Shown in pieces: positions 39,854 to 63,248 of a DNA stretch of 64,000 nt. The first letter of the stretch is position 1, and the number at the start of each line of letters is the position of its first letter. Origin of the DNA: Rhododendron vialii (lineage: Eukaryota > Streptophyta > Magnoliopsida > Ericales > Ericaceae); contig NC_080563.1 of the NCBI RefSeq assembly GCF_030253575.1, positions 39,299,001 to 39,363,000 of the forward strand, given 5' to 3'. The position numbers were made by a program, and so were the translations under genes. Below the pieces are notes generated by a model. The model was not told where the DNA came from. It did not search any database and worked only from the letters and a program-made list of their open reading frames with translations.

Positions 39854-40846
39854 TGTAAAGACCCAATATTTTTTTAAATAAATAATACTAACAATTATCA
39901 AAACAAAAATAATTATTTTGCTTGAAAAATTACTCACGCCGTCATACAAAATTTTATTATGTAATCATTTGTGTGTGCGCGCGTACACGCGTGCCGACGA
40001 GTAATTTTTCTTATGTGTATACTTTCGTCCCACTAGATAATCTTTTCCTAACCAACAATTTGTCCCAGTCACATTGCTTCCTCATGCGTGGCCTTTTGTC
40101 TTTCTTCCACCGAATTACCCATCCAATTTCCCTAACAAAATCCTAAACTAACTGAGGAAAACATAATACCCTTTTTTTAAACATCTTCCATCTAACTTGT
40201 CAATGTTTAACCATTTTTGTCACCTTCTTTTCTCCAACCAATAAGAAGCCGACAACCACCAAAAAAAAACCTTCCTTTTAACTCCCAAACAAAAGGATTC
40301 GCCCGGCACTGTATTACCCGAGAGATATAATACTCCTCCCTATAATACTCCTCTTTCTTTCTTTTCTTTTTTTTGAACACCAGCACACACACACCCACTG
40401 TGCGGCAGAGACAGAGAGAGAGAGAGGCAGCCGGTCTCCATAGCCACGACCGCTGCACCTCCTTCCTCCATCACCAGCCACCACCACCTCTTCCCTCCTC
40501 CAACCGAACCCATCCTCCTTCTCTCCTGCCGGACCTCCACCTCCAGCCATCATTCCCACCCCCTCCCACCATCACCACCGAGTTCCAGCCGAGCTCCGTC
40601 GCCGCTACCAAAATCACTCCGTAAATCGTTTCGTCGGACGCAAGGTAGTCCAAACTCATCTCCCTATGTATATTTATATGTTGCTATGTAATACTATCAA
40701 TGATCTGGTGTACATGTTGTACATTCGAAGTTTCGTTGCGATAACAAAAACCCGAGCCGAACCGTACGTAAACTTTCGAAAAAGCTTGGAATTGGAACCT
40801 TAAATCGCTGTGGAAAACTAATTAAATGTTCGGGCCCAGTATATTA
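39854..40846. mobile_element. Possible truncated LTR, TGTAAAGACCC-type
   Basis: It starts TGTAAAGACCC, like the TGTAACGACCC start of the solo LTR at 12435. As there, an AT-rich stretch is followed by a pyrimidine-rich leader with AAGGTA. No 3' terminus or target duplication is found, and a hAT-type element sits right behind it. This is a weak call. Confidence 0.3.
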
Positions 40847-42197
40847 GTTGTTGCCATAGTTTTAAATCGCGGTATCGGTCGCCGTCGCGGTATATTGGTA
40901 TCGGGACATATCGGTGATACGTAACGGGAATCGGGTGTCGCGGTCATGAATTTTTAAAAATCATCAGCAACATGTATAAAACTTACTTTTGCGGCTTTTG
41001 CCCCCAACATTGGCTTAAATTATTACATTTTAATTAATTAATGACATGTAATAGGCTAATAGCCCATTCTTTTCATGTGAAATATCTGATAATTTATCAA
41101 AACCCGCAAGTCAATAAGATTTTACAAATATGAGAAAAATGCAACATTATGAGTTTCGATATAATTGACATAAACAACAAAAGTAAGATGAAGACATTAA
41201 AATAAACACACCATATAGGTTTTACATTACATAATCGTTAGCCACAACTAATTTATGTTGGAACTATAGTGTGTATTTGTAAAACATGGTGTTTTTCTCT
41301 AGTCCCACATTGGCAAGTTTTAAAACTTCTATTTACTTTAAATGAATTTGCACTTTAGTGGATTTGTGAATGAGAACTCAAAGAGAGGTTTCGCGCGCTC
41401 AAAAAAATGGACGGCAATTTGAAAAATTGATTCGAAAACCAATTAACCGTTGTGCGTGTCACGAGTTATTCGCCCAAGAAACCAATTAACCGTTGTGTGT
41501 GTCACGAGTTATTCGCCCAGAAAGATGCAAATTCGAAATTTGAGCCTATGCACTACGATTTCTTTATCCGTTGTTCTTCTTTGTTCTGCTCCCTCACGCC
41601 TCTTTCAAGATAAAGAAAAGAAAAGATAATGATGACAGGCGTATGGGAAAGTGCTCCACTTTTTAAGATTTGGTAGTGTATGGTGTAGCACACCACATGC
41701 TCCTATTCTTTTTAGTCCATTTTATTACAATATTTTCGTCGTTTTTAGACTGCGAGTCTGTGAGTTATTCCTGAATTTTAATTTTTGGCTATGAATAGAG
41801 CATGTTCAAGTCAAGTCTCACTCGTACACCAACGAACTCACCCTCTCTCTCTCTCTCCAACTTTACTCTCTCAACAGCCATCTGCAACCCCATCTCTCTC
41901 CGAGGGAGATCCCCCTGTCATCTCTCTCTCTCCTTCAAAATCCAACACCCATTCACTCTCTTTCTCCACCACCGTAGCCAGCACACCCACGCCGGAACAG
42001 CACCGACGTCGCCGCACCACCAATGTCTCTTCCTCTCACCCACAGACACCCACCCCCACGCCAAACGACGCCAATGCCCACGAAACCAGTGCCTGTCCAA
42101 CCTCCACCATTGCCACCGTCCAACCGACTCCTTCTTGAAACCGGGTTCAGACTTCGGAGAGCTCTCCTCTCTAACATAAGATAGATCTGTTGAGAGT

Positions 42198-42346
42198 CCT
42201 GCTGACCCTTCGACCGGAGTGGTCGTACGTGACCCCGTTCCAGCAAGACGATGGGCCGAACCCGGCTGTGCCGATCGCGTACAAGGAGGAGTTCTGAGAG
42301 ACGGTGGACTACTTCCGAGCTGTTTCTTCGGAGACGATGGCTACTG
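42198..42346 (+). pseudogene. Captured fragment of protein farnesyltransferase/GGTase-I alpha subunit
   Basis: One frame reads [28 protein letters not shown], a stop, then ETVDYFRAV. This matches the N-terminal region of plant FTA, the shared alpha subunit of CaaX prenyltransferases, where ...RPEWSDV.P..QDDGPNPVVPIAY is followed by .EEFRETMDYFRA. The Arg codon after EEF is TGA here, consistent with a CGA to TGA change. The last residues diverge from the family and are followed by GTACGT, possibly the original intron donor. Only the first tens of residues of a protein of about 330 are present, inside the transposon, so it cannot encode an enzyme. A complete FTA gene should exist elsewhere in the genome. 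Confidence 0.75.
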
Positions 42347-42370
42347 GTACGTCTCTCTCTCCTCTCTATC

Positions 42371-42403
42371 GAGTTCGCTCTCTCTCTCTCTCTCTCTCTC
42401 TCT
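42371..42403 (+). repeat. (CT)n microsatellite
   Basis: CT run inside the hAT-type element, just after the captured fragment. Confidence 0.85.
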
Positions 42404-42521
42404 TTGTGAGAATGATCGAAATTCCTACCCATAGTTTCTCATGACTGATCTTTGTTTTGTTTCCTCCACGTCTTCTTCACCTCCTCCGGCTTGGCTCTCT
42501 CCCTGTCTGTGTACGTGTGTG

Positions 42522-42540
42522 TGCTATATATATGTATGTG

Positions 42541-42624
<84 letters not shown>
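42522..42624 (+). repeat. Compound (TA)n(GA)n microsatellite
   Basis: A short TA/TG run is followed by about 34 GA units, inside the hAT-type element. Confidence 0.9.
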
Positions 42625-42628
<4 letters not shown>

Positions 42629-43516
42629 TAAAAAGATACAGCGAGAGATTGATTTTGCAGAAGAAATCAAATTTGATTCTGATTCCTGAATTTTTTTTCC
42701 CTTCTTCCTCCCCGAACCGGCCACAAAAATCCGTTACAGACCGATACGTACCGGAAATCGGCCGGTTCATCTGTGATTTCCAGTCTTCCGGTTATAACGG
42801 CCTATATCCAAACCGAAACCCTCAAATTCCGGTACGAACCGGCCGATACGGTTCGTACCGGCCGATATTTAAAACTATGGTTGTTGCCCAGTAGGTTAAG
42901 ACTGATTTTAGCACTCCACAGACGAAGAGAGAGTGCAGACCAAGTTCCGATCAAAATCTGCGGTTTTTTTTTAAAATTGCTTGAACGGAAAATCTGATCT
43001 GTCCATCTTGTTTGTCTCCTCGAGACAGTTCGGATAATGGTATAATAAGACTCCATACGATGTCGGGGTAGATCACATGCGTCGATCAAAGTTTTGATTG
43101 TGTGAGAATACCACACCCTATAATTTTCATTTGGCATGAGGTTGAAGATGAGGCGACATCACGCAGATGTCACCTCCTGCGTGTCTGATGATTTGGCATG
43201 ACGTTGAAGATGAGGCGACATCACGTAGATGTCACCTCCTGCGTGTCTGATGAACAAGGGACTTTTTAAAAAGTTTTGGTATTAAGTTACAGTTTAGTCC
43301 TTTAGTTAGTTAATATTTCAAATTAGTTTGATACAATATTCTATTATTTTGAATATTGGCCCACAACATGTTTTGGTGTTAAGGTTTGACCCGGCAATTG
43401 CTTTATGCTGATAGGGTAGAGGTAGCCGTAGACTTAGACTTATAGGGTTGGTTTTCATCTCTCAAGCGTATGTCATTGGTTTCATATCCCATTACCAATA
43501 GGCCAACAGTTGTATT

Positions 43517-47456: not shown

Positions 47457-50297
47457 ATGTTCACATCCACCAAACTTTTATTTAGTCAACTGCACAACTA
47501 CGTGCCACGTTTTCTTGCTATGACACTATTCATATTTCACAATCTGGTGAAGCCCCATACTTCCACATTGCGCAGCCACCAAATAAAAGTTAACCCAAAT
47601 TTCTTTCCAACTTTATCTCTCCATCTCCAATACAAGTGAAAATAAAATGACTATCTACTATTTTCATATTTCTTTTATGATAATATTTTTTTTTATGATA
47701 ATAATAACTAGAATTCGTTGAACCCAAATTAGAAATGTTCGACTGCAAAAGTTAACAGATACATAAGTTTTTTCTCTGATGCATTTTTAGATCAACCATA
47801 GGGATAATAAGTGTCACTACAAACAAAGGTGTTCAACTTATACCGGTATTCGATTAGCTAAATTGCTAAATGATCAATGCACCTAATTATTCATGAGGTT
47901 GTGTAAATCAATACGTCTTCTACCAATTCTTAAGTGCTAAGGCGCACAATTCCATATATAATGGTGTATGTGTCAACAAAAAAAATTCAAAAGTACTATG
48001 CATTATAACCTCCCTGGCCTTAAGAGTTAAGAGTAAGGGTTTAATATGCTATCATATGACCATATCAAACTAACAATTGACAATCAATAGTTGAAATTGC
48101 AAAGATTATATATGGATGATATTCTACTCCAAATTAATTGACTAAAGTGTTCCATATCTCACCATACGTCGATGTTGCTATCATCACTTTATTTTGGGGA
48201 CTTATTGTTACCGTTGTCTTGATGTTGCCGTGGTACGCTCCGGCGTTATGTATAGCTTGTAACCCTCTTAGAATAGCCTTACAATAAACACAAACAACTA
48301 TTATTTTCTCTTAGCTCATAAAAAAAAATTGTCAATTTATGCAACTTTTTTTCCCATTACTATTCCTAAGAACGGACTTAGTGTCGGTCCCAAGGCCAAT
48401 ACACCAAGTTCCTAAGTTGTTGTACTCCCAAGCCGCCTTTGGTCTTGCGATCCACGAGGTCAAGCTATCTTCGGTGAATTCTTTTCTTGATACAACCGTG
48501 CTTGCATTTTTGCAAGTACCAACGTAAAATTCATCACAAACTGAAGGATTTGTTATGTTTTCGAAAACATTTTGGAAATGTATAGCTTCTTGATGAGTAT
48601 TGGTTAGGTGAACTGTTACGGTTTTGAAATCCAAAGGATTGGTAGTCCAACAATGGGCTTCAAAAGTTGCGCCATACGAGTGCTTTTTTATTTTATAGTT
48701 CAAATTCGAAATATCGATTTGGAATTCCATTTCATGCCAAACTTGCATACAAAACATGCAAAACAATAATGTTGGGCTTTCTTTATTAGCAAAATAAAAT
48801 ACATCAAGTAATAAGTGGAATCAGACTTTACAATTCTTCCAGATGGATTTCCTCTAACCTTCCAATCATCAGTGTCATAGTTGGAAGGTTAGAGTAAATC
48901 CACCTGGAGGAGTTGTAAATTCTGATTTCACTTATTTAGTTGATGTATTTTATTTTGTTAAGAAACAAAGCCTAATATTATTGTTTTGCATGTTTTGTAT
49001 GCAAGTTTGGCATGAAATGTAATTTCAAATCGATATTCCAAATTTGAACTATAAAATAAAAAAGCACTTGTATGGCGCAACTTATGAAGCCCATTGTTGG
49101 ACAACCAATCCTTTGGATTTCAAAGCCATAACAGTCCACCTAACCAAAACTACCAAAACTCATCAAGAAGCTATACATTTACAAAATGTTTTTGAAAACA
49201 TAACAAATCCTTCAGTTTGTGATGAGTTTTACGTTGGTACTTGCAAAAATGCAAGTACGGTGGTATCAAGAAAAGAATTCATCGGAGGTAGCTTGACCTC
49301 GTGGGATTGCAATACCAAATGGGGATTGGGAGTACAACAACTTGGGAACGTGGTGTATTGGCCTTGGGGCCGATACTAAGTCTGTTCTTAGGTGTAGTAA
49401 TAGGGAAAAAAAAAAAAGTTGTATAAATTGACTTTTTTTAATTTATAATGAGCTATGAGAAAATAATAGTTGTTTGTGTTTTTGTTAGGGCTATTTTGAG
49501 AGGTTTACAACCTATACCTAACGCTGGAGCGTATCATGGCAACATCAAGACGACGGTGAGGATAAGTCCCAAAATGAGGTGTTGATAGTAACATCGATGT
49601 ATGGTGAGATATGGAGCACTTTAGTTAATTAATTGGAGTATAATAGCTTCCATATATAATCTTTGCAATTTCAACTATTGATTGTCAATTGTTAGTTAGA
49701 TATGGTCATCTGATAGCATATTAAACCCTTCCTCTTAAGAGGTTATGATGCATATATATGCACGTTTGAATTTTTTTGTTGTCACATACACAATTATATA
49801 TGGAATCGCGCGCCCTAATACTTAAGAATTAGTAGAAGAGGTATTGATTTACACAACCTCCTGAATAATCAGGTGCATTGATCATTTAGCAATTTAGCTA
49901 ATCGAATACCAGTATAAGTTGAACATCCTTGTTTTTAGTGACACTTACTATCCCTATGGTTGATCTAAAAATGAATCAGAGAAAAAGCTTGTGTATTTGT
50001 TAACTTTTGTAGTCAAACATTTCTGATTTGGGTTCAACGAATTCTAGTTATTATTATCATAAAAAAAAAATTATCATAAAAGAAATATGAAAATAGTAGA
50101 TAGTCATTTTATTTCACTTGTATTGGGGATGGAAAGATAAAGATGGAAGGAAGTTTGGGTTAACTTTTATTTGGTGGCTATGCAACGTGGTAGTATGGGG
50201 GCTTCACCAGATTGTGAAATATGAATAGTATCATAGCAAGAAAACGTGGCACGTAGTTGTGCAGTTGACTAAATGAAAGTTTGGTGGATGTGAGCAT
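47457..50297. repeat. Large palindrome: two 1.4-kb inverted arms with a 15-base spacer
   Basis: Left arm 47457-48865 and right arm 48881-50297 are reverse complements along their whole length, with moderate divergence and small gaps. The centre reads AACCTTCCAA, 15 bases, TTGGAAGGTT. Outer ends coincide at GTTGACTAAAT(A/G)AAAG. Each arm carries one copy of the same exon (48332-48766 minus; 49044-49379 plus). The gene exons at 50281-51189 continue beyond the right arm, so the right arm is the original and the left the added copy. Confidence 0.85.
48332..48766 (-). pseudogene. Unrecognised exon, inverted copy E1' (open 144 codons)
   Basis: The frame encodes NYKIKKHSYGATFEAHCWTT, FENITNPSVCDEFYVGTC, KNASTVVSRKEFTEDSLTSW and NLGTWCIGLGTDTKSVLRN before a stop. 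It is open throughout, whereas its twin in the right arm has a frame change near SLTSW. There are four Cys and two N-glycosylation sites, but no domain I can name. It ends about 100 bases before a piece encoding GNIKTTVTISPQNKV that also follows the twin. Without the downstream exons it is unlikely to be a complete gene. Confidence 0.5.
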
Positions 50298-60445: not shown

Positions 60446-61301
60446 TAAGTAAAAAATTTAGGTGATGTGACACTCCTAGCCCTTCCATTATACTCCTATA
60501 TTATAATCTGCCCTTCCATGTCTCAGAAGAAACACGAAAGATGGTAGAAAGACATAGGCAAGGTGAGAGTTGAATCCATGGCCATTAGGGGAAGCGGAAA
60601 CACCAGTTCAATGGCTGAAGATCTACACATCGTTCGTAGGAAAAGAAATAACGTATGACTCGCACCTCATACCCACAGCCACCGGCTATCCCCTCTATGC
60701 ATTACCACTTACTAGTAAGAAAAGCCATTAGAATCGTAATCCCCCGGTAGAGGGATAGACTCGCTAGTCTAGGGATGGGCATTTGACCATACCACGACCC
60801 GATATGGAAACAGCGCAGGTACGAGTTTTAGGTATTCCGATCAGTCCAGACCAGCAAAAAAATGCCAACCACTCTTGTCTTGGGGCTATCCCTAAAGATA
60901 TGTTACTTGTTCAGAATGAACCTCTTAGGGAGTCAATTTGCACGAGGCTTTCTCAAAAAAATAATAATAATAAAATTCCAAATTTAAAAAAGATAAGTAC
61001 ACTAGCGACAAATTTCAAACTTTGGTGTACTTTTCTCAAACTCTAATTTGATCTGGGATCATAATCTGATTCTGATTTGTGTATAGTAATAGGATTATAC
61101 TTCTAGGTGAGGGACCCTCTAACCATCATCCATATTCGATTCAAGCTAGATTCTGACAACCTGCAAATCCTAGTTTAGAGCAAGATAAGATACACAATGT
61201 CGATCTAGGGACGAAGAAGATGAAGGTTCTGTTAAATCTCCAACAATTAGCAGTTGGGTTCCTTCAGTATCAAATAGCTATTATTGCGGTAGATTTCGGA
61301 G

Positions 61302-62050
61302 CATAGTTTTAAATATCGGCCAATTCGAACCGTATCGGCCGGTTCATACCGGAATTTGAGGGTTCCGATTCGGATATAGGCCGGTATAACGGGGAGACTG
61401 GAAATCACAGGTGAACCGGCTGATTTCCGATACGTATCAGTCTGTAACGGATTTTGTGGACCGGTTCGGCCGGTTCAGGGAAAAACGTTTCAGGAAGAAA
61501 AGAAAAAAAACGTTTCAAAATTTTAGCCAAACGTGGACTTAAACCACAGTGTGTGACGCACACCCGGTTAATTAGTTTCCAAATCAGTTTTTCAAATTGC
61601 CGCCCATTTTCCTAAGCGCGAGACCTCTCCTTGAGTCCTCATTAACAAACCCATTAAAGTACAAATTCATTTAAAGTAGATAGAAGTTTTATAACTTACC
61701 AATGTGGGACTAGAGAAAAACACCATGTTTTACAAATACACAAGTTGCAACATTATTCTCATATTTGTATAATCTTATTGACTTGCGGGTTTTAATAAAT
61801 TATCGGATATTTCACATGAAGAGAATGGGCTATTACATGTCTTAAATTAATTAAAATATGATAATTTAAGCCAATGTTGGGGGCAAAAGCCGCAAAAAAA
61901 TATTTTTCAAGTTTTATACATGTTGGTGATGATTTTTAAAAATTCACGACCGCGACACCCGATTCTCGCAACGTATCACCGATATGTCCCGATACCGATA
62001 TTCCGCGACCGATACCGCGACGGCGACCAATACCGCGATTTAAAATTATG
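61302..62050 (-). mobile_element. Non-autonomous hAT-type transposon, 749 bp
   Basis: It begins CATAGTTTTAAATATCGG and ends, reversed, CATAATTTTAAATCGCGG. TTTCGGAG is duplicated on both sides (61294-61301, 62051-62058). The first serpin unit lacks it at 56843, so it inserted after the tandem duplication. It is the same family as 40855-42879 in opposite orientation, but without the captured middle. No transposase. Confidence 0.85.
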
Positions 62051-62287
62051 TTTCGGAGTACCATTCAGTGTCAAGTGTCAACTACTGACAGCAAAATCTG
62101 GAGGGTGGATAACAGAGGTCGAAACAAGAAAATGAAATATCAGAAAGCACATGTTGCCTTAACACTATAGCATACCAAAATGCTAAAACCATTGCCACGT
62201 CCGGAAAAATTAAACGAAATGCAAACATTATTAATCCAGAAATTAGAACTCACTAGAAGCCCATCTGCATACACATTTACCTCATGA

Positions 62288-63077
62288 TCAACCCGCAAGG
62301 GGATTAAGCACTTGGCCAATGAAGAGCACCACACCAGTCATGTCTTCTCTAATGACGAACAAGAAAGGGTGGTCGGCCACAAAATCTATCTCCTTTGGCC
62401 CTTCATCACACTCAAACGTCAAATAACCAGCGGAAGTAGCAGCTGCCGCTTCTGTGCCTTATTCATTAACTGCAATGCAAGCTTTGTGAAAAATGCTCGA
62501 AATGTACAGTTTTCGACCAACAGAAGTGGAGTCCACCATCTCTATCAGCCCTTCACCACCGGAAAATGGCAAAACCAACCCTAATCCTTTCAAAACTTTA
62601 GAAGCTTCGAAGTCAAAAGAGAATTTAAATTTTGGGATTAGGAATTCACCCACTTCTACTCTTTCGTGCGGCAAGTGGCGGTCTAAGAATCTGAATTCAG
62701 AACTCACTTTCTCCATTAGAGCGGAAAAGACCATCTTCGGCATTCGGAAGAAAGAAGTACATAGAAAACTGACGTTTATCTTCACCTGGATTGTAAGGAA
62801 GCCTTAAGACTTTGAAACCATAAAATGCCCTAACGAATTGTTCCTCGTCGCTTGTCATGAAGGGTACTCGAACTGAACTCCCATTCAGGAGGTGGAAGTC
62901 TTCGTATTTGGTTTCCGACACATCGAATTTCTCAATCCATGCTCCTTTGAAATAGAGTGCATTCGCAAAGATGAGTCTGGTTAAATCATTGATTGAACCG
63001 AAAGGAAGAACTTCTTTGATAAGCCCATTAGTCTCCTTTTCAGCCCACTGATTCACTTCATTGGTCACCTCTACAGC
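62288..63077 (-). pseudogene. Serpin pseudogene, second tandem copy (exon 2)
   Basis: The acceptor and frame (AVEVTNEVNQWAEKETNGL) match exon 2 of the intact gene. The product runs to NAEDGLF, where one extra T (near 62732) shifts the frame. It resumes as SALMEKVSSEF and ends prematurely at a TAA in the hinge (VNE-stop-GTEAAAA, near 62460). Past the stop the loop reads [19 protein letters not shown], then ADHPFLFVI and the normal terminus at TGA 62290-62288. Two independent lesions make it non-coding for an inhibitor. It shares Phe-Glu-Cys at the reactive centre with the intact copy. Exon 1 is outside the window. Confidence 0.9.
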
Positions 63078-63248
63078 CTTCACAATGATCAATAGATCGA
63101 AAACGTAAAGATCAGCACATGTATGATCTACCCTTACTAAACTAGGCATCGCCTAAACAACACCGAAAATGGAAAGGGATAGGGCCGCGCTACATGAGCG
63201 CCAGGGCATTCAAATGAACCCGCTTACCTCTTTGATTATCACTGTTAT

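Follow-up and report, generated by a model that had tools for sequence, protein, structure and literature searches.

A stretch of Rhododendron vialii DNA carries, between the ends of a transposon, coding sequence of the farnesyltransferase alpha-subunit gene (FTA), which raises the question of how the gene fragment came to lie there and whether the transposon itself took it from the gene. The window, i.e. the whole stretch of 64,000 nucleotides analysed here, corresponds to C7:39299001-39363000 in an assembly of 532.6 Mb and 13 contigs; coordinates given without a contig are window positions. The reading we favour, at a probability of about 0.83, is that a non-autonomous hAT-type transposon took an FTA-bearing piece of an older dispersed repeat second-hand and then transposed.

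Boundaries of the element and its insertion site

An earlier note, made from the sequence alone, had placed perfect 13-bp terminal inverted repeats (TIRs) and a perfect 8-bp target-site duplication (TSD) at 40855-42879, and both were borne out (13/13 and 8/8 bases). The outer features of the element are as follows.

40847..40854: left copy of the TSD, GTTGTTGC, 8 bp
40855-42879: non-autonomous DNA transposon, 2,025 bp
40855..40867, plus strand: left TIR, CATAGTTTTAAAT
40855..41560, plus strand: left arm, common to cargo-less family copies
41439-41481 and 41482-41524: 43-bp tandem duplication in the left arm
42682..42879, plus strand: right arm, common to cargo-less copies
42867..42879, plus strand: right TIR, ATTTAAAACTATG, exact reverse complement of CATAGTTTTAAAT (13/13)
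42880..42887: right copy of the TSD, GTTGTTGC, 8 bp

When the two flanks were joined with a single TSD copy, 11 other loci matched near full length across the junction and a twelfth did so partly (at least 43 matches altogether, with 40 of 51 candidates scored). Insertion is certain because the joined flanks with one GTTGTTGC match other loci across the junction, and from the same matches it follows that the transposon landed in another dispersed repeat. This repeat, represented by 40660-40854 and 42888-43059, has at least 11 collinear copies, matching at 82-85% in the best eight and at 79% in three. Five related empty sites were fetched and aligned. All of them hold the TSD sequence once, exactly in three and with one base changed in two, and the boundaries of the element are therefore exact. 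As this one genome offers copies with cargo, copies without it and empty sites, the junctions can be read almost to the base.

The transposon family and its classification

The 24-mer at the left end occurred 118 times genome-wide (54 forward, 64 reverse), compared with 0 occurrences of a reversed control, and a search with the whole element returned at least 87 matches (40 of 530 candidates scored). Both ends were located in 26 of the 29 copies examined, the other three having no findable end. An 8-bp TSD was perfect in 20/26 copies and reached at least 7/8 bases in 22/26, while a perfect 9-bp TSD was found in none of the 26. The four copies below 7/8 included L028, with a 7/7 repeat, and L014, in which the ends located look displaced. 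Excluded from this count were L009, which is a non-hAT locus with cargo, and L010, which is part of the C10 copy and was entered as C10; L037 is the same place as L006 and is without a clean left end. Size was 697-950 bp in 23/26 copies, the exceptions being the window element, the C10 copy and L040 (1,446 bp). The shorter, cargo-less relative that the earlier note had seen at 61302 was confirmed, in the opposite orientation, with 12/13 TIR bases matching and no cargo.

61302..62050, minus strand: cargo-less family member, 749 bp, with TSD TTTCGGAG at 61294-61301 and 62051-62058

Adjoining this copy, a Serpin-like coding sequence lies on the minus strand at 62459-63152, split over two open stretches that overlap (Pfam Serpin, 3.9e-31 and 1.6e-9). 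On C4, three left ends (13773619, 13781606 and 13789593) are exactly 7,987 bp apart, which suggests a tandem array of an 8-kb unit containing the transposon.

The TIR and TSD pattern of the family fits hAT, the common plant superfamily with 8-bp TSDs, and the 13-bp, perfect TIR is short, as expected of its members. The hAT end consensus is YARNG. The ends here read CATAG, with T as the third base, and since the consensus is a tendency only, we call the element hAT-type rather than proven hAT. Membership of another superfamily with 8-bp TSDs (P, Merlin or similar) would account for these ends and for the lack of a linked transposase: an autonomous partner or transposase with the same ends was not found when 150 of 741 hAT dimerisation-domain candidates were compared by eye with 100 of the 118 left ends. 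Within that comparison only the domain match at C4:37428272 lay less than 10 kb from a left end (C4:37420477, minus strand), and it was on the outer side. We nevertheless consider another superfamily improbable, given the 8-bp TSD in 20/26 copies, the short TIR, the standing of hAT as the common superfamily of this TSD length in plants and the at least 150 matches to the hAT dimerisation domain in this genome (150 of 741 candidates scored). None of the seven open stretches of at least 80 aa that reach into the element matched a Pfam family at 0.01. The hAT-type element is thus non-autonomous, with a host gene fragment between its TIRs, cargo-less relatives and signs of mobility after capture, and the reading in the earlier note of a Pack-hAT-like transposon that carries a piece of FTA, here from exon 1, is supported.

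The FTA fragment and its copies across the genome

Between the arms, foreign DNA of about 1.1 kb (~41561-42681) replaces ~48 bp of the cargo-less copy L039, and its borders can be located to a few bases. Near its left border, the units of the 43-bp tandem duplication differ by four mismatches, and the duplication is missing in the sibling copy on C10. The interior of the element and the gene it relates to comprise the following.

41561..41758, plus strand: filler; of the scored hits, the C10 sibling alone matched it
41759..42681, plus strand: chimeric cargo, consisting of a TC-rich leader, the FTA piece and a region with splice-donor-like and acceptor-like sequences
42193..42323, plus strand: FTA exon-1 fragment, 131 bp, with 19 differences from C2:12176478-12176608
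42295..42297, plus strand: in-frame TGA stop inside the FTA piece, also in the C10 sibling
42337..42660, plus strand: stretch from donor-like ATGGCTACTG/GTACGT to acceptor-like TTTTGCAG/AAG
C2:12176475-12180365: FTA gene, five exon matches

The two FTA-like peptides reported earlier, a 28-residue stretch and ETVDYFRAV, are present in one frame with the TGA between F and E, and in a phmmer search against PDB sequences all 15 matches (counted at E up to 10) were farnesyltransferase/geranylgeranyltransferase-I alpha subunits, the best at 7.7e-7. The fragment corresponds to FTA codons 11-54, the last incomplete, and its differences from the gene fall 4, 5 and 10 times on codon positions 1, 2 and 3. 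Nucleotide identity with the FTA gene had been predicted for the fragment and its flanks alike. It held for the fragment (84% over 146 bp), whilst the flanks gave no match, this 146-bp hit being the only one with the low-complexity filter on. Nor did the proposed capture of the FTA leader stand, as similarity is confined to ~131 bp of exon 1; the leader and the rest of exon 1 are absent from the element. The 42337..42660 stretch is partly common to other FTA-bearing copies and is not derived from FTA; its splicing is inferred only. The stretch after the FTA piece was also considered as a second gene and rejected, its 34-aa peptide having no PDB-sequence match at E up to 10.

A genome search with an Arabidopsis FTA protein as the query gave 13 matches: the five exons on C2, one weaker relative on C7 at 37085608 and seven N-terminal fragments ending at query residues 50-58. 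The fragments lie on C7 (the window element), C10, C1, C6 (two, C6a and C6b), C12 and C9, and at five of the seven (C9, C6a, C6b, C12 and C1) hAT arms are absent. The junction between FTA and non-FTA sequence is the same on the right side in all seven and on the left side in six, the C12 copy having lost the first part of its FTA piece. The five non-hAT loci share the 41759..42681 cargo, whole or in part. Most of it is common to the window element and C9 (85%), C6a (80%) and C12 (76-82%) in aligned blocks, and smaller parts are common to C1 and C6b. Beyond the right border of the hAT cargo at 42681, C1, C6b, C6a and C12 run on together, and C13:19587301-19589300 holds the downstream part of the chimera with no FTA piece. 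Sequence common to C12 and C13 reaches ~4.3 kb upstream of the C12 FTA piece, and that shared with C6a reaches ~3.2 kb. The chimera therefore exists as a dispersed repeat outside the hAT copies.

Comparison of C9, C6a, C6b, C12, C1 and C13 established neither a Helitron nor a MULE nor a long-TIR reading of the first vehicle. On C1, a 240-bp imperfect inverted repeat encloses the FTA piece and a lectin-kinase fragment. Since the collinearity of L065 and L066 with C1 extends past the outer edge of the left arm, this repeat cannot be taken as a demonstrated element end. The enclosed fragment (L061), ~0.8 kb downstream of the FTA piece and in the same sense, matched Lectin_legB at 2.9e-8 on 33 aa; we take it to be a legume-lectin-domain receptor kinase, the kinase part being read from the translation, and it is possibly further captured DNA. 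Beside the FTA fragment on C12 lies an abundant repeat of ~1.18 kb (L063 3220-4399) with a hAT dimerisation domain (3.2e-19). This domain was rejected as the transposase of the first vehicle, as it belongs to that separate, nested repeat.

A tree of the FTA piece was inferred from a 131-bp alignment with 8 informative sites (91 bp only for C12) and rooted on the FTA gene. C6b and C1 fell outside, followed by C6a with C12 and then C9 with the hAT pair. The clade of C6a, C12, C9, C10 and the window element received a UFBoot value of 93, the sister relationship of the window and C10 copies 74, and other nodes 61-74. At sites 46 and 119 FTA, C1 and C6b have one state in common, from which the hAT copies and the remaining non-hAT copies depart; sites 81 and 102 conflict over the order of C1 and C6b, and none of the eight informative sites unites the hAT copies with FTA to the exclusion of the others. 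The apparent nesting of the hAT cargo among non-hAT copies is thus supported by a short alignment. A tree of the whole cargo was not relied on because the C1 leader was not alignable; C13, without an FTA piece, is in neither tree.

An alternative, in which the hAT element took the fragment straight from FTA and later handed it on to the other loci, draws on the 84% match to the gene and on the position of the fragment between intact ends in the hAT copies. Direct capture predicts flanks that also match FTA, and they are not FTA. Furthermore, C1 and C6b retain the FTA base at sites at which the hAT copies have another, and the non-hAT copies, which have no hAT arms, share right-side sequence that is missing in the hAT copies. 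We therefore regard this alternative as very improbable, and the earlier view that the window element captured its cargo from FTA is not supported, in view of the chimera at five loci without hAT arms and of the nested position of the hAT copies in the tree. Given these five copies and that nesting, it is the older repeat that would have captured FTA first.

Routes of acquisition, divergence of arms and cargo, and possible effects

The sequence of events under second-hand acquisition would begin with an older dispersed repeat, its nature as the first vehicle being inferred, capturing 131 bp of FTA exon 1. The common forerunner of the window and C10 copies would next have exchanged ~48 bp of its interior for the ~1.1 kb of foreign DNA, which consists mainly of a truncated stretch of the older chimeric repeat with the FTA piece already inside. 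Faulty gap repair after excision, or fusion of neighbouring copies, may have brought this about. The enlarged element would subsequently have transposed, leaving 8-bp duplications at C7 and C10, presumably mobilised in trans by a hAT transposase. Post-excision repair errors have been suggested as an acquisition route in a report on maize Ds elements (PMC3260210), and fusion of neighbouring copies has been proposed for Pack-TYPE transposons (PMC8903248). On C5, two pairs of same-strand left ends lie 690 and 74 bp apart (100 of the 118 left ends listed). This is the sort of layout needed by the fusion model, but nothing ties these pairs to the window element.

The main rival that remains is a nested insertion, in which the older repeat itself jumped into a hAT copy and its ends disappeared afterwards. 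A single repeat fragment makes up most of the cargo, the C10 sibling does contain nested insertions, and an 8-bp direct repeat, AAATTTGA, is found no more than 25 bp from either border, which gives this reading a little more room. The repeat is off the borders, however, and a match as long was found in 5.6% of random stretch pairs; moreover, the junction lacks ~48 bp of hAT sequence, and the right border cuts the older repeat mid-way. A nested insertion is accordingly unlikely in our judgement.

The C10 sibling (C10:6290734-6293823; L034 3235-6324) was, among the scored hits, the one further hAT copy with cargo, and has its own TSD, ATCCCCAC. It contains two nested insertions that are missing in the window copy, at element coordinates ~974-1340 and ~1687-2051. 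One has TAGGGCTGCAAACG ends and an 8-bp duplication with one base changed on the left, and a second has inverted repeats of ~48 bp and a 9-bp duplication, CACTCGTAC. The window and C10 copies differ at 55/772 sites in the arms compared with 26/1,006 in the cargo (p 9e-6; p 8e-5 without CG sites). Their left arms were no closer to each other (44/601 sites differing) than to the cargo-less copy L035 (41/605 and 38/594, respectively). One reading is a relay module, with the gene chimera put together in one mobile repeat, passed to a hAT element and then between different hAT backbones by ectopic repair, which we consider doubtful. Faster, methylation-driven C-to-T decay of the arms may explain the contrast instead, because transversions alone did not differ between arms and cargo (12 v 9, p 0.27) and most arm differences (39/55) were private to one copy, 26 of these 39 being C-to-T or G-to-A.

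The earlier note had also raised the possibility of chimeric transcripts or small RNAs against FTA. The existence of seven fragments would be compatible with such an effect, as would the 34 of 111 aligned 21-mers that have only two mismatches to FTA. All 111 aligned 21-mers, however, have at least two mismatches, so that none is identical to the FTA coding stretch; within the aligned part exact matches do not exceed 14 nt, and the reading frame is interrupted by the stop. A 19-nt match outside the aligned stretch is a TC repeat. Any action of small RNAs or a chimeric transcript on FTA would, from these comparisons, be extremely improbable, and the FTA piece, with its stop and no function indicated, is most likely passive cargo.

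Earlier publications have described hAT elements that capture genes, and the relay order is what is added here. Pack-hAT is a published name, used for Pack-TYPE transposons of maize and rice (Gisby and Catoni 2022, PMC8903248). As outlined there, the likeness lies in a non-autonomous TIR element with internal gene-derived DNA and arms common to smaller cargo-less copies; the window element differs in that its cargo is mostly an older dispersed chimera, with the named gene contributing only 131 bp of ~1.1 kb. In maize, Ds2 and Ds-l4 with gene fragments were described in 2011 as a rare feature, and that report depicts hAT elements with filler DNA that is sometimes gene-derived, including one case in which all copies of the coding sequence were transposon-borne (PMC3260210). 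The family and the ends are different, Ds TIRs being 11 bp. Maize Helitrons likewise gather gene fragments in several steps, but there a rolling-circle element acquires successive fragments itself (PMC3288121), whereas here a second element type takes over an assembled chimera. The word farnesyltransferase was absent among the literature matches listed. A gene fragment inside a Pack element need not, then, come from the gene via that element, and surveys in which every Pack element counts as a separate capture from whichever gene matches it best could overcount the FTA event and misname its captor.

Elsewhere in the window, two very similar open stretches at 48332-48820 (minus strand) and 49023-49379 (plus strand) stand in an inverted arrangement; neither matched a Pfam family at 0.01, and we take them to resemble plant S-protein homologues.
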